Made by a program: the position numbers and the translations under genes. Of a stretch of DNA of 34,662 bases, positions 1 through 34,661 are shown in pieces (within the stretch, counting starts at the first letter, position 1; every line of letters starts with the position of its first letter). This stretch comes from Myxococcota bacterium (GTDB taxonomy: Bacteria > Myxococcota_A > UBA9160 > PR03), in NCBI GenBank assembly GCA_030066475.1, contig JASJBO010000097.1, positions 1 to 34,662 of the forward strand, in the 5' to 3' direction. The notes below the pieces were generated by a model. It was not told the DNA's origin and ran no database searches. It was given only the letters and a program-made list of their open reading frames with translations.

Positions 1-62
1 TGGACTTCGCTCGCCTGCGGCTCGCTGCGCGCGCCGCCGGGGGAACCGGCGGCGCTTGCGGG
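1..62 (+). repeat. Dispersed two-hairpin repeat, copy 1 (edge)
   Basis: Begins TGGACTTCGCTCG and ends GGCGCTTGCGG. Read on the minus strand, hairpin I is a perfect 10-bp stem, GCGCCGCCGG with CCGGCGGCGC, around TTCCC. Hairpin II follows the family pattern. It lies inside the open frame of the histidine kinase. Confidence 0.85.
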
Positions 63-1064
63 GGTGCCGGTCCTGGGGCCAGTTGCCAGTCCGGCGCCGG
101 CTTGATGGACTTCGCTCGGCTTCGCCTCGCTGCGCGCGCCGCCGGGGGAACCGGCGGCGCTTGCGGCGCGCAGGCGCACGAGGAAGCGGCTGCCGTGACC
201 GGGGCCGTCGCTGCGGACCTCGACGCGGCCGCCCTGGCGGCGCAGCAGGAAGCGGACGATGAAGAGGCCGAGGCCCAGGCCCTTGGCGCGGCTCGTGTGT
301 CGGCCCGCGCGGTAGAACGGCTGGAAGATGCGCCTCAGCTCCTCGCGCGGGATGCCCAGGCCACGGTCGACGATCTCGACCTCGACGCCGCCCTCGCCTT
401 CCCGCGCCCCCACCTCCACGTCGACCCGTTCGGGGGAGTACTTGACTGCGTTGTCCAGCAGGTTGCGGAATACCAGCGCCAGCTCGTACGCCTGTCCCCT
501 CACGATCGGAGCGCCTGTCACCTCGAGCCTCAGCACCTCCGGCTCGAGTCGGTAGCGCTCGCGCACATCGCGTACGGCGTCCTCGAGCACCGTCGTCAGG
601 TCGACGGCCTCGCGTCGGGGCCGGCGCGCGCGCGCGGCCGCCCGCGCCGCGGCCAGCACCTGCTCGACCGTGCGCTCGAGTCGGTCGACGTCCTCCCCCA
701 TGCGGCCGAGGAACTCGGCGCGGCGCTCGGACTCGAGCTCGTGGCGGCGCAGCGTATCCACGTACAGGCGCAGCGAGGCCAGCGGCGTCTTCATCTCGTG
801 GGTCACGGCATCCAGGAAGGCCTGCTGGCGCTGGCTCTGGCGCATCTCGCGGACCAGCCAGGCGCACAGCAGCGAGAGCCCCGCGATCAGCAGGGCGAAG
901 AACAGCGAGCCCAGCACGAGCAGCACCCAGTGCAGCGCAGTCAGCTGCTCCGCGACGGGCCGGAGGTCGCTCACCACCACCAGGTTCCAGGCCACCGCCA
1001 GCACCAGGGCCAGCAGCACCAGGACGATCCCGATCGTCAGGGGCAATCCGATCGAGCGGCGCAT
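1..1064 (-). CDS. Sensor histidine kinase, open at left edge
   Basis: Two-component sensor kinase, inner membrane. An ATG at 1064 opens about 355 codons that reach the window edge without a stop. Two hydrophobic helices (about residues 6-30 and 45-70) flank a very short loop, so there is no real periplasmic sensor domain. The H-box DAVTHEMKTPLASL has its phospho-accepting His at residue 89. The ATPase domain shows the N-box NLLDNAVKYSP, G1 DRGLGIP and G2 GLGLGLFIV. The domain ends normally at HGSRFLVRLRAA near position 170. The frame then runs through two copies of the dispersed repeat, giving an Ala/Gly/Ser-rich tail. No response regulator is visible, so the partner probably lies to the left. 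It is divergent from the DUF1329 gene with 56 bp between starts. The start has no strong Shine-Dalgarno sequence. Confidence 0.85.
   Translation of the reverse strand, partial: MRRSIGLPLTIGIVLVLLALVLAVAWNLVVVSDLRPVAEQLTALHWVLLVLGSLFFALLIAGLSLLCAWLVREMRQSQRQQAFLDAVTHEMKTPLASLRLYVDTLRRHELESERRAEFLGRMGEDVDRLERTVEQVLAAARAAARARRPRREAVDLTTVLEDAVRDVRERYRLEPEVLRLEVTGAPIVRGQAYELALVFRNLLDNAVKYSPERVDVEVGAREGEGGVEVEIVDRGLGIPREELRRIFQPFYRAGRHTSRAKGLGLGLFIVRFLLRRQGGRVEVRSDGPGHGSRFLVRLRAASAAGSPGGARSEAKPSEVHQAGAGLATGPRTGTPASAAGSPGGARSEPQASEV
106..166 (+). repeat. Dispersed two-hairpin repeat, copy 2
   Basis: Same family as copy 1, 43 bp further in. On the minus strand hairpin II reads GCGAGGCGAAGCCGAGC, with a GAA triloop and two G-A mismatches. 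Compared with copy 1 the central stem pair is swapped (C-G to G-C), so pairing is kept. It also lies within the histidine kinase reading frame. Confidence 0.85.
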
Positions 1065-2672: not shown

Positions 2673-2730
2673 CGCAAGCGGAGCCGCGCAGCGGCGGAGC
2701 GCGCAGCGAGCCGCAGGCGAGCGAAGTCCA
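2673..2730 (-). repeat. Dispersed two-hairpin repeat, copy 3
   Basis: The plus-strand text starts CGCAAGCGGAGCCGC and ends GCGAAGTCCA. Hairpin I is GCCGC-GCA-GCGGC (2683-2695). Hairpin II is GCGAGCCGCAGGCGAGC. It sits in the 209-bp gap between the convergent DUF1329 and DUF1302 genes. Confidence 0.9.
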
Positions 2731-2766: not shown

Positions 2767-2823
2767 GCAAGCGGAGCCGCGCAGCGGCGGAGCGCGCAGC
2801 GAGCCGCAGGCGAGCGAAGTCCA
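2767..2823 (-). repeat. Dispersed two-hairpin repeat, copy 4, abutting a stop codon
   Basis: Nearly identical to copy 3 from AAGCGG onward, 36 bp away. In the direction of the DUF1302 gene, the TGA stop (2826-2824) is followed at once by TGGACTTCGC of the repeat. Confidence 0.9.
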
Positions 2824-5727
2824 TCAAAACGTGTAGCGGAGGCGCAGAAACAGCTCGTCGCGCTCGGCGATCGGCGAGAGGCCCTGGTAGCGGGTCCGCG
2901 CGCGGTAGCTGCCGCCCTGGTTCTGCACCAGCGGCGGGCTCAGCGGCGTCGGCTCCTGGCGCGCCTGCCCGTAGAAGCCCGCTCCGCCGACCGTGATCGA
3001 GAAGTCCTGGCTGAAGCGGTACGTCAGCTGCCCGATCAGGGCGCCCGACGTGGAGCTGATGTCGTGCACGAACGTCAGCGACGGCAGCAGGCGGTCCTGG
3101 AAGTAGCCGGTCGCCACCGTGAAGGTCGCGAGCGCCGAGATCGGGCCGTCGGCCGCGAACACCTTGCCGTCCCGGTAGTCGTCGATGACCCGGATGAACC
3201 ACTGGGAGTTGAAGAAGAAGGTGCGGTTCTGGTTCAGGAAGTCGATGAAGGTCGGCCGGTCGATCGAGATCGTGACGTTGTAGACGTCGCGCTCGACCCA
3301 GCCGCGCCGCGAGTCGGAGCGCTGGAACGGCTGGTCGTGGAACCAGGTCGCCTCCACGCCCCAGTTGGTGGCGGTCGGGTCGTGGGCGAAGTCGAAGGCG
3401 AAGCCCAGCACGTTGCGCTTGCGGTAGCGAAAGGCGATCTCGGTACCGCCGGCCCACACGAAGGTGCGGCGGCCGAAGCGGCCGTTGCCGCCGGCCTTCA
3501 CCTCGGGACGCGTGACGCCAGCGACCGCGATCACGCCCCGCACCAGCTCGCAGGTCTCGGGGCTGTCGACGACGCACTCGGGGTCGTCCTCGTTGGCCAC
3601 GCCGAGCGAGGCGATCAGGTTGAGGAAGTTGAAGGAGAGCGCGCCCAGCTCGCTGTCGAACTGCTCGCCGGTGAAGGGGTGCGTCAGCACGCGGGCGTCG
3701 TCGGTGCGGCCGAGGTCGCCGGCGTTGCAGCCGAAGGGGCCCGGCTGGACGCAGCCGTCCACCAGCGCGTCATAGGCGGGGTCGTCGATGCTGCGCGCGC
3801 CGGGCAGCGTGACGGCGACGCCGTTCACCGGCCGCGTGGCCACCGGGCCGCCGGGCTCGAACATCGGGAACTCCTGGAGCAGCACGCTGGCCTCGGCGTT
3901 GAACAGGTCGATTCCGTCGGTGTCGCAGTTGGTGTCGTAGAAGTCGCCGCAGCCGAGCAGCGCCTGCTGCTGGACGGTGAGGTACTCGCTCACCGCGCCG
4001 ATGCCGTCGAAGGACCCATCGTCCTCGTCGAACGGGTCGTCGAGCGGGTCCTGGTTGAGCTCGACGAGCTCGACGGGGACGCCCGAGATCAAGCCCGCGA
4101 CGCCCTCGCCGATCGCACTTCCGCCGAGCACCACACCCAGGGCCTCCGGTATGGAGATACCTACGATCGTCACGTCGCTCGCGTTGAGCACGTCCACCAG
4201 GCAGCGATCCTCGGTGCCCGGCAGCAGGTCGCCCGCCAGGCCCTTGGTGATCGAGCAGACCACGTCGAAGACCTGGCGGTTGCTGGGGTGGAACTGGAGC
4301 ACGAAGTCCGAGCCGGAGTCGGGAAGCAGCGGGGTGCCCACCGAGGTGAGGGGCCGCCCCGTCGCGACGTCGACGTTGCGCGAGTACTCGTTGAAGTTCT
4401 CGATCACCGGGGCGTCTTCGTAGCCGTAGAAGTCGGAGATCTGGAAGCTGAAGCGGTCCCAGCGGAACTCGACGCGGGCGCCGATCTCCCAGCCCTCGAT
4501 GTCCTTCCACGGGTCGCTGGGACGCTCCTCGCCCGCGATCCCCACTCCCGCCCAGCCGTGAGCGGTCAGCCCGAAGCGCTTGCCGCACACGATCCACACG
4601 GTGTACGGCTCGCCGCACTGGCCGAGGTCGAGCGGCTCGAAGTCGTCGAAGTTGGCGGCTACCTCGAGCCGCACGTCGGAGAGCGGGCCCACGTCCCAGA
4701 AGGACCAGACCGCGCGCATCGCCCAGTTCGGGATGCGCGACTCCTCCAGGCTCGGCAGCGAGGAGAGCGCCAGGTCCTGCGGGTTGTACTGGTCGGTGGT
4801 GCGGAACAGCTCCGTCTTGCCCCACACGATGGTCTGCTTGCCGATCCGCATCCACAGCCGGCCGTCGATCGCCTCGAGGTCGGCGTACAGCTCGCGCAGC
4901 TCGTACTCGTCCTGCTGGCTGGCGCCATGGTTCCACTGCAGCTCGTTCTGGCTGAAGCGCTGGTCGAACTGGTCGAAGCGGCTGCGGCGGCGCTGCAGCG
5001 AGTCGCTCGGGACGAACAGGCCCTGCGCCGACCAGCGGTCCGGGCTCTGGTTGGGCACGAGCGGACGCAGCGGCAGGCCGAGCGTGGTGTTCTCGCTGTC
5101 GCGCAGCGAGCCGTTCGGCCGCACGTCGTCCTCGGGGCGCCACGGCCCCATCGGGAACACGGCGTTGCCCAGCGAGGCGTCGACGTCCTTGCCCGAGTAG
5201 CGGCCCTTCAGCAGCCGGCCGAAGGTGCTCTCCACGGCCGCCGGGTCGATGAGCGACGAGGTCACCAGGGCGCTCAGCGCCACGTCGGGCAACGGCAGCA
5301 GCTCGTTGTCGCTGTGGATCCCCTCGCGCGGGACCAGCTTCAGCACCCCCCGGTAGGGGTTGGTGCGCCCGTCGGCGTAGTTGCGCAGGGTGGAGTTGGC
5401 GCGGTCGCCGTTGTAGCGCCAGGTGGGCGCGATGCCGCAGCCGGTCCAGATGCAGTCGAAGCGCACCTCGACGCGCGAGAACGCCGAGATCAGGTCGAAG
5501 GGGCCGAAGCCGTCGGGCGCCACGTCGAGCTCGGCCTCGAGGTTGAGCACGTGGGCCCACTGGCTGGCGTTCCAGTACTTGCGCTGGAACTGGTCGGACA
5601 GCGTCCGCAGCTGCAGCTCGGTGAAGCCGTGCAGCTCGAAGCGGGGCGTGCCGGCGGCCCCGGCCGGCGCCGACGGGAGCAGCAGGGCGAGGGCGAGCAG
5701 CGTGAGGAGCGGTCGGGCGCGCAGCAT
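2824..5727 (-). CDS. DUF1302 outer-membrane protein, paralogue A
   Basis: 967 aa, downstream member of a tandem pair (53 bp after paralogue B). The start is ATG 5727, followed directly by a signal peptide (MLRARPLLTLLALALLLPSA, probable cleavage near AGAAG). Family features include GFGPFDLIS near the N-terminus, a conserved WGKTELFRTTDQYNPQD block, and long alternating beta-strand sequence. The C-terminus LRLRYTF has the terminal Phe of a BAM beta-signal, so an outer-membrane beta-barrel is well supported. DUF1302 proteins are often 500-650 aa. This one is longer because of a central Asp/Cys-rich insertion (about 3700-4300) with CGDFYDTNCDTDGIDL and LVDGCVQPGPFGCNAGD. Substrate is unknown. 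It probably acts with the neighbouring DUF1329 protein (inference from known co-occurrence). Confidence 0.85.
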   Translation of the reverse strand: MLRARPLLTLLALALLLPSAPAGAAGTPRFELHGFTELQLRTLSDQFQRKYWNASQWAHVLNLEAELDVAPDGFGPFDLISAFSRVEVRFDCIWTGCGIAPTWRYNGDRANSTLRNYADGRTNPYRGVLKLVPREGIHSDNELLPLPDVALSALVTSSLIDPAAVESTFGRLLKGRYSGKDVDASLGNAVFPMGPWRPEDDVRPNGSLRDSENTTLGLPLRPLVPNQSPDRWSAQGLFVPSDSLQRRRSRFDQFDQRFSQNELQWNHGASQQDEYELRELYADLEAIDGRLWMRIGKQTIVWGKTELFRTTDQYNPQDLALSSLPSLEESRIPNWAMRAVWSFWDVGPLSDVRLEVAANFDDFEPLDLGQCGEPYTVWIVCGKRFGLTAHGWAGVGIAGEERPSDPWKDIEGWEIGARVEFRWDRFSFQISDFYGYEDAPVIENFNEYSRNVDVATGRPLTSVGTPLLPDSGSDFVLQFHPSNRQVFDVVCSITKGLAGDLLPGTEDRCLVDVLNASDVTIVGISIPEALGVVLGGSAIGEGVAGLISGVPVELVELNQDPLDDPFDEDDGSFDGIGAVSEYLTVQQQALLGCGDFYDTNCDTDGIDLFNAEASVLLQEFPMFEPGGPVATRPVNGVAVTLPGARSIDDPAYDALVDGCVQPGPFGCNAGDLGRTDDARVLTHPFTGEQFDSELGALSFNFLNLIASLGVANEDDPECVVDSPETCELVRGVIAVAGVTRPEVKAGGNGRFGRRTFVWAGGTEIAFRYRKRNVLGFAFDFAHDPTATNWGVEATWFHDQPFQRSDSRRGWVERDVYNVTISIDRPTFIDFLNQNRTFFFNSQWFIRVIDDYRDGKVFAADGPISALATFTVATGYFQDRLLPSLTFVHDISSTSGALIGQLTYRFSQDFSITVGGAGFYGQARQEPTPLSPPLVQNQGGSYRARTRYQGLSPIAERDELFLRLRYTF

Positions 5728-5780: not shown

Positions 5781-8700
5781 CTAGAAGGCGTACCGGAGGC
5801 GGAGGAACGCCTCGTCGCGCTCGCGGACCAGGGCCAGGCCGTTCTCGACCCCGCGCTGGTAGGCGCGGTTGCCGGTCTCCTCGCCGCCCCCGCCGATGCC
5901 CCCGTTGACGCCCATGTCGCGGTCCTGCGGGTTGCCCCAGAACCAGTTCGTCCCGATCGTGAGCGAGAAGTTCTCGGTGAAGCGGTAGGTGATCTGGGGC
6001 AGTGCGGCGCCCGACTGCGACTGGGTGTCGTATACCAGCGTGAACGACGGCAGCAGCCGGTCCTGGAAGTAGCCGGTCTGGATCGTCAGGGTGCCGAGCA
6101 CGTTCCACGGGCCGTTGCTCGTGAAGCCCCGCCGGTAGTCGTCGACGTACTGGATGAACCACTGCGTGTTGATGAAGAAGGTGCGGTTCTGGTTCAGGAA
6201 GTTGACGAAGGTCGGCCGATCCACCGAGATCGTGAGGTTGTAGGTGTCGGCCGTGGTGCGTCCCGAGAGCGAGTTGTTGTCGCTGAACGGCACGCCTTCG
6301 ATCCAGGTGGCCTCGAAGCCCCAGTTCGACTTGGTGACGTCCTCGGCGAAGTCCATCGAGAAGCCCAGCACGTTGCGCTTCTCGTAGCGCAGCACGGCCT
6401 GGCCGCCCGCGTTCCAGGCGAAGTCGCGGCGGCCGTGGGTGCCGTTGCCCGCGGCCCGCACGCTCTTGCGGCGCAGGCCGGAGACGTCGAAGAGCGCCTG
6501 CTGCGAGCCGCAGAACTGCGGCTGGGCCCAGGAGCACTGCTGCGGCGAGGTGTCGAAAGGATCTTCCGTGTTGAACTCGTTCAGCTCGTGGGGCGGGTCC
6601 GGCCTGGGGGAAGGCGGCGCCGTGTCGGGCGACGAAGAGAGCGCCGCCAGGCCGAGCTGGATGTTGAAGGAGACCGCCGCCATCTCGCTCCGGAACAGCT
6701 GGCCGCCGGCTCCGGTGAACACGGGCGGGATGCGGAGCTCCAGGGCGTCGGCGGGCCGCACGACCCCGTTGAGGTTGTCGCCGGCGTTGCAGCCGAAGGC
6801 GCCCGGTCGGGTGCAGCCGTCCACCAGCGGGTCGTAGCCCGCGTTGCCCTCGCCGCGGTCGCCGGGCAGCACGACGTTGCCCTGGCCGAAGCGGCGCTGG
6901 GCGGGAACCTGGTCGGAGCCCACGGTCCCGGGCGCCGGCTGCGTACTGTCCATGTAGTTGTAGCCCTTGAGCGGGATCGTCATCGCCGTGCCGACGAAGC
7001 TCTGCATGTAGGTGGCGGCCTCGGCCTGCAGCAGGTCGATCCCGTCCACCTCGCAGTCGGTGCCGTAGAAGATGCCGCAGCCGAGCAGCGCCTCCTGCTC
7101 GTCGGTCAGGCCCTGGTTCAGCGAGGCGAAGCCCGGCACCGTGAACGCCGGGTGCGGACCGAAGTCCGGCATCACGGCGGTACCGGTCGCTCCCTTGGCG
7201 GGGCAGCCGTCGGTGCGGAACTGGTCGCAGGGGTCGATGTTGATCGGCACGGTCGGCGGCACCGCGCCGGCCAGCAGCGCGAAGATGCCGGCCGCGTTCG
7301 GGTTGCCCGCCGCCCCGTTGGCCAGGAACGACGAGATCGGCAGCGAACCCGGGTTCTTGGCGTTCTCGCGCGCAAAGGTCTGCCCCTGGACCAGCAGGTT
7401 GTTCAGGCTGTTGAACACGCTCTGGCCGCAGGCCGAGGTGTCGAGGCTGCTGAAGCCGATGCTGGTGGCGCAGATCATCGCGAACAGCTGGATGTTGTTC
7501 GACGCCTCGTTCAGCACCTCGTTGCGCAGCGTCGGGTCGGTGATGCGGTTGGTGCCGTTGTCCTCGATGCCGGTGGGGCTGCCGTCGGTCAGCGACAGCT
7601 CGAAGCGGTTGACGCCGTTGACGGAGCCCAGGCACGAGGGCTCGTCGCCGGTCAGGCACGGCCCGCGCGCGTTGAACTTGCGCGCCCGGCCCGAGACCGG
7701 GTCGACGTTGCGCTCGTAGAGCGTGATGGTGTCGGCGTAGGGGAGGTCGTTGTAGCCGTAGAAGTTGGAGACCTGGAAGCTGAAGCGCCCCAGGCGGAAC
7801 TCGAGGCGCGCGCCGATCTCGATGCCCTCGACGTCGTCCCAGGGGTCGTCGGGGCGCTGCTCGCCGGCGAGACCGAAGCCCGTCAGGCCGTGGGCCCACA
7901 GGCCGACGGTCTTGGCGCAGGCCGCCAGCGCGGTGAACGGCTCGCCGCAGCGACCGATGTCGGCGGGCTCGAACTGGTCGAAGTTCATCGCCACCTCGAT
8001 GCGCACGTCCTCGGCCGGGCCCACCTCCCAGAACGACCAGACGCCGCGCGCCGACCACAGCGAGATGCGCGACTCCTCCAGGCTCGGCAGCGAGGCCAGC
8101 GCCAGGTCCTGCGGGTTGTACTGGTCGGTGGTGCGGAACAGCTCGGTCTTGCCCCACACGATGCTCTGCTTGCCGAGCCGTAGCCACAGCCGGCTGTCGA
8201 ACATCTCGATGTCGAGGTAGGCCTCCTTCAGCTCCTTCTCGTCCTGCTGCGAGGCGCCGCGGTTCCACTGCAGCTCGTTCTCGCGGAAGTCCTGGTCGGG
8301 GTCGTTGCCCTTGCCGCCGCGCAGGAAGCGCTTGAACGACTTGCTCGGGTAGTAGACGCCGCGGGCCTCGTAGCGCGGGGAGTCCGAGGTGTTGCTGAAC
8401 AGCGGCCGCGGGCGCGCGGGCAGCTCGCCCTTGCCGGTCGTGCCGGTGACCTCGTTGAAGTCGCCGTCGCTGAACGGGTTCGGGAAGTCGCGCAGGCGGC
8501 CCACCTCGCGGGCCCCGCAGCGGGGGTTCAGGATCAGGATCTGGTTCGAGTTGCCGAGCGCGCCGCCCTGGGTCTCGCGCACGCCGAAGCGGCACTTGCG
8601 CTGGCGTTGGAAGTAGAAGTAGGCCGGGTCGTCGCGGCCGAAGGGGCCCTGGCCGGCGCCGAACTGGGCGTCGGGACCGGCGACGCCGAACAGGCCGACG

Positions 8701-9278
8701 AAGCCGGGGAGCTGGTCGATGCGCGCGGGCTTGTTCTTGTTCTCGGGCAGCAGCGCGTCGACGAAGTCGCCGCTGCGCGGATCGACCACCGGGCGCAGGC
8801 GCCGGCCGGTGAAGCGGCCGAGGTCGCCGCGCGCGATCAGCGGGCCCGACTGGTTGCCCTGGAACACGGCGCCGTTCAGGCCGGCCCGCTTGCCGTCGGA
8901 GCGCACGTCCGGGATGCTGCCGACGCTGTCGCCGTAGGCGTCGACGCTGCGGAACAGCCCGCAGCCATGCGACCAGATGCAGTCGAAGCGGGCCTCGACC
9001 CGGACGAAGCTCGAGATCAGGTCGAAGGGCCCGAAGCCGTCGGGCGCGATGTCGCCTTCGATCTCGAGGTTGAGGACGTGGTACCACTGCGCGAGGTCCA
9101 TGTCCTCGCCGATGTTGATGTCCTCGCCGAGGAAGCGGATCTGCTGCTCGTAGAAGCCGTGGATCTGGAGCCGCCCGTCGAAGAACTCGAACGCCCGGGC
9201 CTCCGGTGTCGCGCCGAACAGCAAGAACAGCCCCGCGGCCAGCACGGCCGCGCGGCGAGCTGCGAGAACCCCGCCCAT
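5781..9278 (-). CDS. DUF1302 outer-membrane protein, paralogue B
   Basis: 1165 aa. ATG 9278 is preceded by GAGGAGGGG about 5 bases upstream, which fixes the start over an in-frame ATG 129 bases earlier. The signal peptide ends near ATPEARA. Shared blocks with paralogue A include HGFYEQQIRF-type N-terminal strands, GFGPFDLIS, WGKTELFRTTDQYNPQDLA, NQNRTFFINTQWFIQ, GYFQDRLLPSFT and the C-terminal AFLRLRYAF beta-signal. It also carries the same Cys/Asp-rich insertion (CGIFYGTDCEVDGIDLL, LVDGCTRPGAFGCNAGD), plus extra loops that make it about 200 residues longer. Blocks shared along the whole length indicate a tandem duplication followed by loop divergence. It lies 144 bp downstream of topB on the same strand and may have its own promoter. 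Function unknown. Confidence 0.85.
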   Translation of the reverse strand: MGGVLAARRAAVLAAGLFLLFGATPEARAFEFFDGRLQIHGFYEQQIRFLGEDINIGEDMDLAQWYHVLNLEIEGDIAPDGFGPFDLISSFVRVEARFDCIWSHGCGLFRSVDAYGDSVGSIPDVRSDGKRAGLNGAVFQGNQSGPLIARGDLGRFTGRRLRPVVDPRSGDFVDALLPENKNKPARIDQLPGFVGLFGVAGPDAQFGAGQGPFGRDDPAYFYFQRQRKCRFGVRETQGGALGNSNQILILNPRCGAREVGRLRDFPNPFSDGDFNEVTGTTGKGELPARPRPLFSNTSDSPRYEARGVYYPSKSFKRFLRGGKGNDPDQDFRENELQWNRGASQQDEKELKEAYLDIEMFDSRLWLRLGKQSIVWGKTELFRTTDQYNPQDLALASLPSLEESRISLWSARGVWSFWEVGPAEDVRIEVAMNFDQFEPADIGRCGEPFTALAACAKTVGLWAHGLTGFGLAGEQRPDDPWDDVEGIEIGARLEFRLGRFSFQVSNFYGYNDLPYADTITLYERNVDPVSGRARKFNARGPCLTGDEPSCLGSVNGVNRFELSLTDGSPTGIEDNGTNRITDPTLRNEVLNEASNNIQLFAMICATSIGFSSLDTSACGQSVFNSLNNLLVQGQTFARENAKNPGSLPISSFLANGAAGNPNAAGIFALLAGAVPPTVPINIDPCDQFRTDGCPAKGATGTAVMPDFGPHPAFTVPGFASLNQGLTDEQEALLGCGIFYGTDCEVDGIDLLQAEAATYMQSFVGTAMTIPLKGYNYMDSTQPAPGTVGSDQVPAQRRFGQGNVVLPGDRGEGNAGYDPLVDGCTRPGAFGCNAGDNLNGVVRPADALELRIPPVFTGAGGQLFRSEMAAVSFNIQLGLAALSSSPDTAPPSPRPDPPHELNEFNTEDPFDTSPQQCSWAQPQFCGSQQALFDVSGLRRKSVRAAGNGTHGRRDFAWNAGGQAVLRYEKRNVLGFSMDFAEDVTKSNWGFEATWIEGVPFSDNNSLSGRTTADTYNLTISVDRPTFVNFLNQNRTFFINTQWFIQYVDDYRRGFTSNGPWNVLGTLTIQTGYFQDRLLPSFTLVYDTQSQSGAALPQITYRFTENFSLTIGTNWFWGNPQDRDMGVNGGIGGGGEETGNRAYQRGVENGLALVRERDEAFLRLRYAF

Positions 9279-9422: not shown

Positions 9423-12350
9423 TTATACCCCCGAAGGGGGCAAGAACACAACGAAAAAGCTGTTCGGCCCCTTTGGGGAGGACTTGAGTCCTGAGGAGGA
9501 CGGGGTCCGGCGCAGGGCGCTCGGGATGGGTCCCCGGCGCCGCGCGGCTGGTGGCTCGCTGGTGACCTTCTTGACCGAACGTGTGGGTTTCAACGCGGTC
9601 TTCTTGCTCGAGGTCTTCTTACGCGTCGCCTTCTTCCGCGTGGCCTTCTTGCCGGAGGCCTTCTTGCGCGTCGTCTTCTTGCGGGTGGTCTTCTTGCCGG
9701 AGGCCTTCTTGCCCGCGGTCTTCTTGCCCGAGGTCTTCTTGCGGCCCCCGGCCTGGGCGCCGGCCTCGTCCTCCGCGCCGCCATCCTTGCCCTTGCGCGG
9801 CGCGCGCGGCGGGAACTCGAAGCCGTGGCGGCCGTTCTTCTTGAGCACCAGCGTCGCCGAGAACGGGCGCCCGAAGCGCGAGGTGAAGTCGGTGAGCAGC
9901 TCGGTGCGGCCGTTGGCCAGGTAGTAGAGCGCCTCCTCGCGGGTGATCTCGCGCTTGCAGACCGTGCGCGGGAAGTTGAAGCCGCAGCTCTTGGGCCGCT
10001 CCGGGTCCTTGCCGAGCTCCTGCTCCTTGAGCTTGCGCTCGCACACGAAGTGGGTGGCGCTCTCGACGATCTGGCACTCCTCCTCGAAGGGGCAGGTGCC
10101 GAGCGGCTCGGTGTTCACGTCGTACTCGGGGTCCGCGCTGACCGAGCCGTCGTCCCAGGCCACGGGGCGCACCCGCACCGCCCACTCCTCGCGGTCGATC
10201 TCGAGCATGCCCTGGTAGGTGCGGCCGTTGCGCGCCGTGAAGCCCTCGAGGGTGCCCGTCTTGCCGTCGTTCACGAGCGCGGTGGCCGTGGCGCGGTCGA
10301 TGTAGCGCCCCGAGGTGTCCTTCCAGATCCGGAGCGGGCAGTCCTCCTCGCGCTCCGGCTTCTCCTCGCAGCGGTAGAACCACGGCGCCTCGACGACGGG
10401 ACGGGCGCAGCTTGGGCAGGGGCCCAGCGGCGGGTCGTCGGCGTAGATCTCGGAATACTCGAAGGTCCTGGTGGTCTCGACGATCTCGCGGGCGTAGCCC
10501 TCCATCTCGCGCATGAAGTCGGCCGCGGTGCGGCCGCCCTGCTCCACCTGGTTCAGGTGGTACTCGATCTCGCCGGTCAGCTCGGCGGAGGCGAGCCGGT
10601 CGATGTGCACGCGCTTCAGGATGTCGATCAGGCGGATGCCCTTCGCGGTGGGCCGCAGCGCCTTGCCCAGGCGCACGACGTAGCCCTTGGCGATCAGGTT
10701 CTCGATCACCTCGGCCCGCGTCGCCGGCGTGCCGAGCCCGCGCTCGTGCAGCGCGGCGGCGAGGTCCTCGTCCTCGACCTGCTTGCCCGCGTTCTCCATC
10801 AGCGAGAGCAGGCGGGCCTCGGTGATGCGCGGCGGCGGCCGGGTCTGCTCGGCCTCGAGCTCGCTCCCGGTGTTCGCGACGCCCACGCCCGACGCCTCGG
10901 ACTGGCCCGGCACCAGCGCGGGCAGCGACGACTCCTCCTCGCCAGTGGCACCGCCGATCGAGCGCCAGCCCAGCTCCACCAGCGTGCGCGCACGGCTGCG
11001 GAAGTGGTGCTCGCCGACCTTCGTGGTGCGCTCCACGCGCTCCCACACCGCGGCCGGGTGGAAGGTGGAGAGGAAGCGGCGCGTCACCAGGTCGTACAGG
11101 CGCTTGTCGTCGCCCGACAGCCCGTCGCCGGGGATCTGCCCGGTCGGGATGATCGCGAAGTGGTCGGAGACCTTCGAGTCGTCGAAGGCGCGGCGCTCGT
11201 TCTCGAGGCCGCCCTCCAGCAGCCGGCGCGCCGCGGCGCCGTAGTCGCCGATCGGCGAGATCATGCCGTCCTTGTCGCGCACCACGCCCCGTCCCGCGTC
11301 CGCGAAGCTCTGGAGCACGTTCTGGACCGTCTCGCGGTAGTCCTCGGGCAGGCAGCGCGAGTCGGTGCGCGGGTAGGTCAGCAGCTTGTGCGCCTCGTAG
11401 CAGCGCTGCGCGGCCGACAGGGTGCGCCGCGCCGACCAGCCCAGCCGCCGGTTGGCCTCGCGCTGCAGGCTGGTGAGGTCGAACAGCGGGGGCGCCGTCT
11501 CGCGCGACGGCTTGCGGGTCTCGGAGGCCTCGCCGGCCTGCCCGCGCACGGCGTCGGCCACGGCGCGGGCGCGCGCCTCGTCGAAGATGCGGTCTTCGCG
11601 GGCGTCCTCGTCGGCGCCCTCGCGGAACTCGGGGTCGAACCAGGTGCCGGGGTAGGCCTGGCCCTCGTGCTCGAAGGTCGCCGCGATGCGCCAGTAGGGC
11701 CGGGGCACGTGCGCCAGCACCTCGAGCTCGCGGTCCACCAGCAGCGCCAGCGTCGGCGTCTGGACCCGCCCCGCCGACCACGCCCCCCGCTCACGGCGCC
11801 CGCGCAGGCGCTTGGTGAGCGCCCGCGTGGCGTTCATCCCGATCAGCCAGTCGGTGAAGGCGCGGCACTCGGCGGCGGCCGCCAGCCCCTCGAGCTCCTC
11901 CCCGGGGCGCAGGCTCTCGAAGCCCTGACGGATCGCGCTGGTCGTCATCGACTGGAGCCAGAGCCGCCGCACCGGCTTGTCGCTGCCGAAGTACTCGAGG
12001 ATCTCGCGGAAGATCAGCTCGCCCTCGCGGCCGGCGTCGCAGGCGTTGACGACGTCCTCCACCTCGGGGTCGGCGAGCAGCTTCTTGATGGTGCGGATGC
12101 GCTCGCTCTGGCGCGCCTTGGGCTTGAACTGGAACTTCTCGGGAATGATCGGGAGGGTGTCGAGGGTCCAGCGCTTGTAGACCTCGTCCACCTCCTCGGG
12201 CTCGAGCAGCTCGAACAGGTGCCCCACCGCCCAGGTCAGCAGGTAGCGGTCGCTCTCGAAGTGAGAGTCGGTCTCGGTGAACCCGCCGAGCGCGCTCGCG
12301 ATGTCGCGGGCGACGCTGGGCTTCTCGGTGATGATGAGGGACTTTGCCAC
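9423..12350 (-). CDS. topB: Type IA DNA topoisomerase (topoisomerase III-like) with basic tail
   Basis: 975 aa. It relaxes and decatenates DNA through a transient 5'-phosphotyrosine. GTG start at 12350, with AGGGAAG about 7 bases upstream. The N-terminus MAKSLIITEKPSVARDIA and TOPRIM motif DAGREGELIF (D105, E109) are typical. The catalytic Tyr is residue 326 in TYPRTDSR. SAGRVQTPTLALL and ATRAEVIENLIAKGY are family blocks. C-terminal zinc-ribbon-like segments follow (CPSCARP..C..C and CPFEEEC..C). Residues about 869-918 form ten KK-containing pentapeptides (KKTSG, KKTAG, KKASG, KKTTR and so on), resembling histone H1-type tails. E. coli TopB is about 650 aa, so roughly 300 residues are extra. 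The last 20 codons are rich in short DNA hairpins. Confidence 0.9.
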   Translation of the reverse strand: MAKSLIITEKPSVARDIASALGGFTETDSHFESDRYLLTWAVGHLFELLEPEEVDEVYKRWTLDTLPIIPEKFQFKPKARQSERIRTIKKLLADPEVEDVVNACDAGREGELIFREILEYFGSDKPVRRLWLQSMTTSAIRQGFESLRPGEELEGLAAAAECRAFTDWLIGMNATRALTKRLRGRRERGAWSAGRVQTPTLALLVDRELEVLAHVPRPYWRIAATFEHEGQAYPGTWFDPEFREGADEDAREDRIFDEARARAVADAVRGQAGEASETRKPSRETAPPLFDLTSLQREANRRLGWSARRTLSAAQRCYEAHKLLTYPRTDSRCLPEDYRETVQNVLQSFADAGRGVVRDKDGMISPIGDYGAAARRLLEGGLENERRAFDDSKVSDHFAIIPTGQIPGDGLSGDDKRLYDLVTRRFLSTFHPAAVWERVERTTKVGEHHFRSRARTLVELGWRSIGGATGEEESSLPALVPGQSEASGVGVANTGSELEAEQTRPPPRITEARLLSLMENAGKQVEDEDLAAALHERGLGTPATRAEVIENLIAKGYVVRLGKALRPTAKGIRLIDILKRVHIDRLASAELTGEIEYHLNQVEQGGRTAADFMREMEGYAREIVETTRTFEYSEIYADDPPLGPCPSCARPVVEAPWFYRCEEKPEREEDCPLRIWKDTSGRYIDRATATALVNDGKTGTLEGFTARNGRTYQGMLEIDREEWAVRVRPVAWDDGSVSADPEYDVNTEPLGTCPFEEECQIVESATHFVCERKLKEQELGKDPERPKSCGFNFPRTVCKREITREEALYYLANGRTELLTDFTSRFGRPFSATLVLKKNGRHGFEFPPRAPRKGKDGGAEDEAGAQAGGRKKTSGKKTAGKKASGKKTTRKKTTRKKASGKKATRKKATRKKTSSKKTALKPTRSVKKVTSEPPAARRRGPIPSALRRTPSSSGLKSSPKGPNSFFVVFLPPSGV
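9461..9487 (-). promoter_or_regulatory. Possible sigma-28-like promoter inside the topB 3' end
   Basis: On the minus strand TCAAGTCC, 11 bases, then GCCGAACA resembles the FliA consensus TAAAGTTT-N11-GCCGATAA (5/8 and 6/8 matches with correct spacing). It points at the DUF1302 operon about 180 bp downstream. The 11-base spacer itself holds CCCC-AAA-GGGG. This is a weak match that could arise by chance. Confidence 0.2.
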
Positions 12351-15050: not shown

Positions 15051-15098
15051 TGCAAGTGCCCGGAGGGCGCGCGCAGTGAGGCGGAGCCAAACGAAGTC
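15051..15098 (-). repeat. Dispersed two-hairpin repeat, copy 5 (diverged)
   Basis: Plus text: TGCAAGTGCCCGGAGGGC..., ending ACGAAGTC. Hairpin I is GTGCCC-GGA-GGGCGC with one T-G wobble. Hairpin II is GTGAGGCGGAGCCAAAC. Unlike the other copies it lies between two divergent starts. The preceding GCGCGGCGGAAGCCCC (15035-15050) also precedes the array at 20526. Confidence 0.8.
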
Positions 15099-20525: not shown

Positions 20526-20677
20526 CGCAAGCGCCCGAAGGGCGCGCGCAGTGAGGCGCAGCCGAACGAAGTCCACCGCAAGCGCCCGAAGGGCGCGCGC
20601 AGTGAGGCGCAGCCGAACGAAGTCCACCGCAAGCGCCCGGAGGGCGCGCGCAGTGAGGCGCAGCCGAACGAAGTCCA
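20526..20677 (-). repeat. Tandem array of three dispersed-repeat copies (51-bp period)
   Basis: Copies 6, 7 and 8 start at 20526, 20577 and 20628; each is 50 bp with a single C between. Copies 6 and 7 are identical. Copy 8 differs by one base (GAA to GGA in the loop of hairpin I). Hairpin I is GCGCCC-GNA-GGGCGC and hairpin II is GTGAGGCGCAGCCGAAC. Each unit ends GAAGTCCA. Confidence 0.95.
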
Positions 20678-21816: not shown

Positions 21817-21864
21817 CGCAAGCGCCGAAGGCGCGCGCAGCGAGCCGCAGGCGAGCGAAGTCCA
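21817..21864 (-). repeat. Dispersed two-hairpin repeat, copy 9
   Basis: Plus text begins CGCAAGCGCCGAAGGCGC and ends GCGAAGTCCA. Hairpin I is shortened by one pair on both arms at once (GCGCC-GAA-GGCGC). Hairpin II is GCGAGCCGCAGGCGAGC. It lies between convergent genes. On the minus strand it follows the HlyD stop as TAG-CTGG-TGGACTTCG, the same junction as copy 10. Confidence 0.92.
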
Positions 21865-34610: not shown

Positions 34611-34661
34611 TGGACTTCGTTCGGCTTCGCCTCACTGCGCGCGCCCTACGGGCGCTTGCGG
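34611..34661 (+). repeat. Dispersed two-hairpin repeat, copy 10 (right edge)
   Basis: TGGACTTCGTTCGG to GGCGCTTGCGG. On the minus strand hairpin I is GCGCCC-GTA-GGGCGC, supplying the fourth base at the triloop centre, and hairpin II is GTGAGGCGAAGCCGAAC. It joins the glutathione peroxidase gene as TAG-CTGG-TGGACTTCG. Confidence 0.9.

Follow-up and report, generated by a model that had tools for sequence, protein, structure and literature searches.

A REP-like repeat of two hairpins, dispersed between and within genes in part of one bacterial phylum

A short repeat made of two adjacent hairpins occurs in many copies in part of one bacterial phylum, mostly in genomes near that of the DNA analysed here, a stretch of 34,662 nucleotides referred to below as the window. 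Its copies differ between orthologous loci and show a sense bias at gene ends. We take it, with a probability of about 0.6, for a non-autonomous REP-like family of dispersed repeats that is spread in trans and whose copies act, or are tolerated, as hairpins at 3' ends. Since the tests of tag, dimer and RAYT failed, the family is not classed with the RAYT-associated REPs, though it is REP-like in behaviour.

Copies in the window and the two-hairpin plan

The 28-base core of the repeat (GCGCAG to GTC) has exactly 10 matches in the window at up to three mismatches, nine exact and one with a single mismatch, versus none in 100 dinucleotide-preserving shuffles of the window. The sequence-only reading, which had proposed a dispersed family of at least ten copies in both orientations, is borne out: seven copies lie on the plus strand and three on the minus strand, and the positions it gave agree within a few bases. 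Copy 1 (1..59, minus; hairpin I of 10 bp with a TTCCC loop) and copy 2 (106..164, minus) are both translated in frame at the 3' end of a histidine-kinase ORF, from the end of its HATPase_c match (residue 300), which is where copy 2 starts. Copies 3 (2674..2730, plus) and 4 (2767..2823, plus) lie between convergent genes and share a GGA/GGA internal loop in hairpin I; copy 4 ends where the convergent DUF1302 gene has its stop codon (2824-2826). Copy 5 (15052..15098, plus) occupies a gap between divergent genes and has a degenerate foot, GTCGA instead of GTCCA. Copies 6, 7 and 8 (20527..20575, 20578..20626 and 20629..20677, all plus) form a direct tandem of 51-base period at 20526-20677, in a gap between codirectional genes, the first unit standing 23 bp 3' of the stop of a Band-7/GYF gene. 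Copy 9 (21818..21864, plus; hairpin I of 5 bp with a GAA loop) lies in a convergent-gene gap, and copy 10 (34611..34659, minus), at the window end, has its foot four bases from the stop codon of a glutathione-peroxidase gene. Both ends of the window fall inside copies, which would fit a contig broken at a repeat.

The 21 genes of the window were called by codon usage. The 19 of them run against Pfam are those of an ordinary chromosome (histidine kinase, DUF1329, DUF1302, topoisomerase, FG-GAP repeats, histidyl-tRNA synthetase-like, arginine decarboxylase, PEPCK, glutathione peroxidase and others); none of the 19 matched a transposase family and two matched no family at all. Rfam gave no match above the gathering score in the window and, at eight loci of genomes G005 and G006, RNase P and one tRNA and nothing else. 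Between 15000 and 34662 there are four terminator-like sites, where 3.9 would be expected; one of these reaches the foot of copy 5. No repeat copy has a T run at its 3' end. Two other observations concern genes of the window. On the minus strand, 2824-5727 (the DUF1302 match) and 5781-9245 are adjacent long ORFs with common direct repeats at 71-87% identity, which from the sequence looks like a tandem gene duplication, and 15-base tandem repeats occupy 9583-9773, in the 3' part of the topoisomerase gene.

The consensus of the repeat runs GCAA, stem I, loop, stem I', GCGCAG, YGAGSC, GNA, GSCGAR, CGAAG. Hairpin I measures 2-15 bp among the copies compared and is very variable in sequence, its arms being complementary; hairpin II carries a tandem G.A step in mid-stem and a GNA loop. 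Covariation was measured in a gap-free alignment of 49 distinct copies that share GCAA, a stem I of 6 bp and a three-base loop. In this set 99.4% of 539 cells are paired, versus 76.4% after shuffling and 26-42% with slid partners, and both sides have changed in 104 cells versus 37.6 in the shuffles, none of the 500 being as high. Four of the six pairs of stem I, where the choice of copies itself favours pairing, occur reversed (G-C and C-G), in 13 to 21 copies each; in hairpin II, whose variable positions are free of such choice, one pair alternates between C-G (32 copies) and T-A (14) and another between C-G (30) and G-C (19). Covariation strongly supports the two-hairpin plan, on one strand. 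What the sequence-only reading had proposed as plan therefore stands, with the two-base purine mismatch step of hairpin II and the variability of hairpin I as added detail; the foot GAAGTCC(A) does not, since CGAAG is general and TCC(A) belongs to some genomes only.

A wider set comprised 254 copies anchored on GCGCAG and CGAAG, in 182 of which stem I measures 4 bp or more. Both GA steps are kept in 98% of these 182 and the closing C-G in 99%, a conservation partly ascertained because both were fixed in the search patterns (0-3 mismatches allowed). The GNA loop is kept in 95%, its first base never having been fixed in the patterns and its last base only in the 84,980-species and IMG/VR scans described below. 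Among the 254 copies the commonest loops of hairpin II are GAA (107) and GCA (93), followed by GGA (22) and by GTA as the rarest (12). Hairpin I was part of no search pattern, and 49 of its 71 distinct three-base loops are GNA, mostly C-G closed. Its first pair is G-C in 179 of the 182 copies; the tetranucleotide 5' of it is GCAA in 146, GCTA in seven and GTAG, GTGG or CGTC in none, counts in which the hairpin-I routine favours GCAA and GTAA by a bonus. As a side observation, genome G347 (L174-L198) and two copies of G006 (L093, L142) show an extra hairpin beside the core, with two tandem GA steps; the pattern GCCGG..CCGAG..GAGCG..GCGAG..GAGG, written after the hairpins had been seen, has 11 matches.

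The case for structure rests on covariation, not on fold energy. When three copies were folded, each strand both as DNA and as RNA, single-copy z values against shuffles ran from -0.98 to +1.11, and the predicted minimum fold was the two-hairpin plan on the plus strand for the copy at 20526 only, as RNA. Counted without a filter, the four outermost pairs of 111 distinct hairpins I (444 pairs) comprise 372 Watson-Crick, 10 G.U, 8 A.C or C.A and 54 other combinations; in the same set a sub-filter that counts G.U as paired leaves 8 G.U versus 1 A.C or C.A. The 108 filtered hairpins I contain 12 G.U and 10 other mismatches, and the Y-R pair of hairpin II, over 182 copies, is T-G in eight versus C-A in three. 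The available text of PMC4686876 and PMC6479982 describes GNA loops on G-C stems as unusually stable DNA mini-hairpins, GAA ranking above GTA. The mini-hairpin d(GCGAAGC) is a physical motif, unlike a repeat family, and GGC-GNA-GCC variants of hairpin II contain GC-GNA-GC. By this analogy the GNA loops and the order of their frequencies hint at a folded DNA strand, an RNA reading also being possible. Tandem G.A in DNA follows the 5'-YGAR-3' rule and the RNA counterpart of GNA hairpins has a low melting point; neither was used as evidence.

Distribution, gain and loss

An exact scan for GCGCAGYGAGNCNNAGNCGARCGAAGTCC in one genome per species (84,980 species) returned 31 stretches in 12 assemblies, labelled Deltaproteobacteria, Myxococcota, Myxococcales or proteobacteria, and the exact pattern found no locus in IMG/VR. 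Each of the 12, selected as a carrier, contains between 6 and 163 matches when two mismatches are allowed, versus none for a reversed control pattern. They are included in a sample of 377 genomes of one phylum, read as Myxococcota because all 12 fall in the phylum of G005 and four are labelled so. The proposal of a family had depended on copies outside the window, and such copies exist: at up to one mismatch, 49 of the 377 genomes match once or more and 37 of these match at least twice (with 3 control matches), some of the low-count genomes, e.g. G340, being off-motif. The single contig of G347 (3,670,799 bases of a 3.7-Mb genome) has 49 matches at up to three mismatches and 41 at up to two, the control pattern giving six at up to three.

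Among the matches listed, two or more copies are found in 23 of 39 genomes with about 62% or more SpeA identity to the window versus 14 of 338 others, an approximate comparison in that some genomes lack the gene and G353, a carrier and sister of G333, gave a weak match only. The best SpeA among the matches listed for the 377 genomes is 73% identical to that of the window. Judged from these sequences, the repeat appears to mark, approximately, a tree neighbourhood, patchy inside it and also present outside. Vertical inheritance with loss would also account for the pattern across the clade.

Comparison of flanks between genomes yielded 55 pairs, many redundant, of which seven were aligned in detail. 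Four of these (L117/L148, L131/L164, L073/L135 and L002/L131) have a copy in one genome and none at the orthologous junction; the other three (L070/L144, L243/L237 and L145 7532/L222) were not readable. One sister-genome locus has three versus two units of an 82-base tandem that takes in the gene end, and a second has two copies versus one. Copies also occur within proteins. Three tandem copies in cinA of G006 are read through in frame, and the blocks on either side of them lie a few residues apart in the protein of G347. The dnaE2 gene of G005 holds two separate in-frame inserts, one of them close to a site that in G006 likewise contains element-derived sequence and in G010 a different stretch, which is unclassified (both gene names are from NCBIfam). 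No target-site duplication was identified at copies. The error-prone DNA polymerase genes at L113 8158-11469, L141 3296-6595 and L161 7006-10311, from three genomes, have differing extra stretches near one site.

G006 also has a second family, of palindromes about 150 bp long, in L131-L150, L013 and L025 (for example L136, about 10200-10370), with a similar segment in L024. Its outer stem of about 21 bp varies in sequence from copy to copy with complementarity kept, and subterminal CGCAGCGAAATCAAGCGCAGGCC and GGCCGAGCCATTCGCGGAG are conserved. Some copies have the core repeat in the loop and others a different interior; among 35 segments, some fold otherwise.

Position relative to genes

The setting of 199 copies in 92 stretches, making up 134 clusters, was surveyed with genes from our own ORF caller. 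In codirectional gaps 35 clusters are sense versus 14 antisense (p 0.004); of the remainder 19 are convergent, nine divergent, 37 overlap called ORFs and 20 lie at contig edges. Gaps of at least 50 bp in the same stretches number 249 codirectional, 70 convergent and 137 divergent, a tally in which gaps that contain copies, and a small number of stretches that overlap, are counted too. Divergent gaps are under-represented among the clusters (9 of 77 versus 137 of 456 gaps, p 0.0005). Twenty-one of the 35 sense clusters overlap the stop codon or start no more than 5 bp from it, and in 13 of 126 listed copies the TAG stop consists of TA and the first G of GCAA. Clusters that overlap ORFs are sense in 35 cases versus two antisense (p 1e-8), though antisense frames hold fewer stops; overlap depends on the start chosen by the ORF caller, and 12 of the 47 ORF-overlapping copies are near a called gene start. 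Multi-copy clusters have a single orientation, as direct repeats, in 50 of 52 cases and are mixed in two.

Copies are probably tolerated or used as mRNA 3'-end hairpins. Transcribed copies would act, or be tolerated, as stable hairpins that may shield mRNA ends or limit read-through. However, an mRNA role cannot be general, since 14 of the 49 codirectional clusters are antisense. That the repeat is nothing but an RNA structure at mRNA 3' ends, a stabiliser or attenuator under selection and not mobile, we regard as unlikely. Both sense biases, the covariation and the clusters next to or across stop codons agree with such an element. Nevertheless, the in-frame copies in cinA and dnaE2, the tandem arrays and the antisense copies are unexpected for a 3'-UTR signal, orthologous junctions exist without a copy, and the outer pairs of hairpin I show scarcely any preference for G.U (10, above) over A.C (8).

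Mobilisation and comparison with known systems

A HUH/Y1-type nuclease whose presence tracks copy number had been suggested by the sequence-only reading, and this suggestion failed. Y1_Tnp (PF01797) is found in 8 of 12 plus 7 of 13 carriers (15 of 25) versus 16 of 30 non-carriers (Fisher p 0.79), the latter drawn from the early zero-copy genomes of the list of 377 (328 zero-copy in total, G042 passed over), and is unrelated to copy number (Spearman 0.08, p 0.71). PF01797 is without a match in G347, a carrier in a single contig, and likewise in the high-copy G005, G006, G141 and G319, where absence is weaker because these are many-contig assemblies. Of the 31 Y1 loci, examined over up to roughly 1.5 kb per side, a single one has the repeat nearby, at a distance of about 1.4 kb (some loci are cut by contig ends). 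A Y1 transposase was rejected as the driver on these grounds, being as common without the repeat and missing in G347; a reverse transcriptase was rejected as a general driver, RVT_1 occurring in 3 of 12 carriers searched. Neither search yielded a mobilising gene. The 13 listed genes with copies on both sides are by eye ordinary host genes, in which no transposase was recognised.

In the available text of PMC3733652, REPs are placed near gene 3' ends, between unidirectional or convergent genes, and can supply a TAG stop; Di Nocera and colleagues describe REPs inside dnaE2 genes there. The E. coli REP is given a 5' tetranucleotide and a mid-stem mismatch (PMC3733652 and PMC8266576, in the text available). 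The Myxococcota repeat shares with GTAG REPs and REPINs, which go with a RAYT (TnpA_REP), the short hairpin, the many copies, the gene 3' ends, the TAG stops and dnaE2. It differs in having no GTAG/GTGG tag, the opposite conserved end being CGAAG; in having two hairpins instead of one, the first of them varying in both length and sequence; in its direct clusters, in contrast to the inverted dimers (BIME/REPIN) of GTAG REPs, head-tail dimers being absent or rare in most REP genomes (same available text); and in that no Y1 transposase was found linked to it. Resemblance to REPs without the GTAG/GGAG tag had been noted from the sequence, and the tag is indeed present in none of 182 copies. In the wide sense the repeat is REP-like, being short, hairpin-forming, present in many copies and mostly extragenic, but 37 of the 134 clusters overlap ORFs.

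According to the available text of PMC3733652, CGTC REPs (families 1-4) are reported without a dedicated transposase and inside Rickettsia genes, and their spread is stated as an open question. Their short CCA tail resembles the TCCA of the window. They have a CGTC (TGTC, CCTC) tag, stems of 8-9 bp with A-T first pairs, loops of 4-5 bases and inverted dimers; in contrast, the Myxococcota repeat has CGTC before hairpin I in none of 182 copies, and its first pair is G-C. Rickettsia palindromic elements (RPE), compared by description only from the same text, are alike in being in-frame palindromic inserts in protein genes. The string 'Myxococc-' is absent from the main text of the three REP papers searched for it, PMC3733652, PMC2817692 and PMC6006769. 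The view that the family is undescribed agrees with a literature search in which none of the best matches listed describes it.

As a non-autonomous REP-like family, the repeat would owe its spread to a trans-acting enzyme, outside the PF01797 class, that recognises it as a folded single strand. By analogy, the GCAA that precedes the hairpin would be the counterpart of the REP tetranucleotide, and the G.A step that of the mid-stem mismatch of the E. coli REP. It is quite unlikely that the repeat forms a separate class of dispersed hairpin repeats, recognised by the tandem G.A steps and GNA loops of a folded DNA strand and not by a GTAG or CGTC tag, moved by an enzyme of neither known Y1 nor known RT type and inserted by preference in sense at stop codons. 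A classical REP/RAYT system, in which a Y1 (HUH) RAYT transposase mobilises hairpins with an aberrant tag, is very unlikely: size, hairpins, 3' location and mid-stem mismatch are all REP-like (PMC3733652 and PMC8266576, in their available text) and most carriers have Y1_Tnp, but so do as many non-carriers, Y1 loci rarely have a copy nearby, G347 and, more weakly, the four many-contig carriers have none, and GTAG or GTGG never precedes hairpin I. A DNA-level site for protein binding or supercoiling, kept for chromosome organisation, is very unlikely too: local density in the window is high, GNA loops form stable DNA hairpins (PMC4686876, PMC6479982) and gyrase is reported at E. coli REPs (PMC3733652), all in the text available, but such a site predicts no orientation bias to transcription, whereas bias is observed, and presence is patchy among near relatives.

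As a REP-like family spread in trans, the repeat would represent a further build of REP-like repeats, in genomes where the usual RAYT explanation fails. G347, with about 40 copies on a single contig and no Y1 match, makes the spread of transposase-less REPs testable, and the strand- and sense-specific hairpins would offer clean targets for binding and transcript assays.
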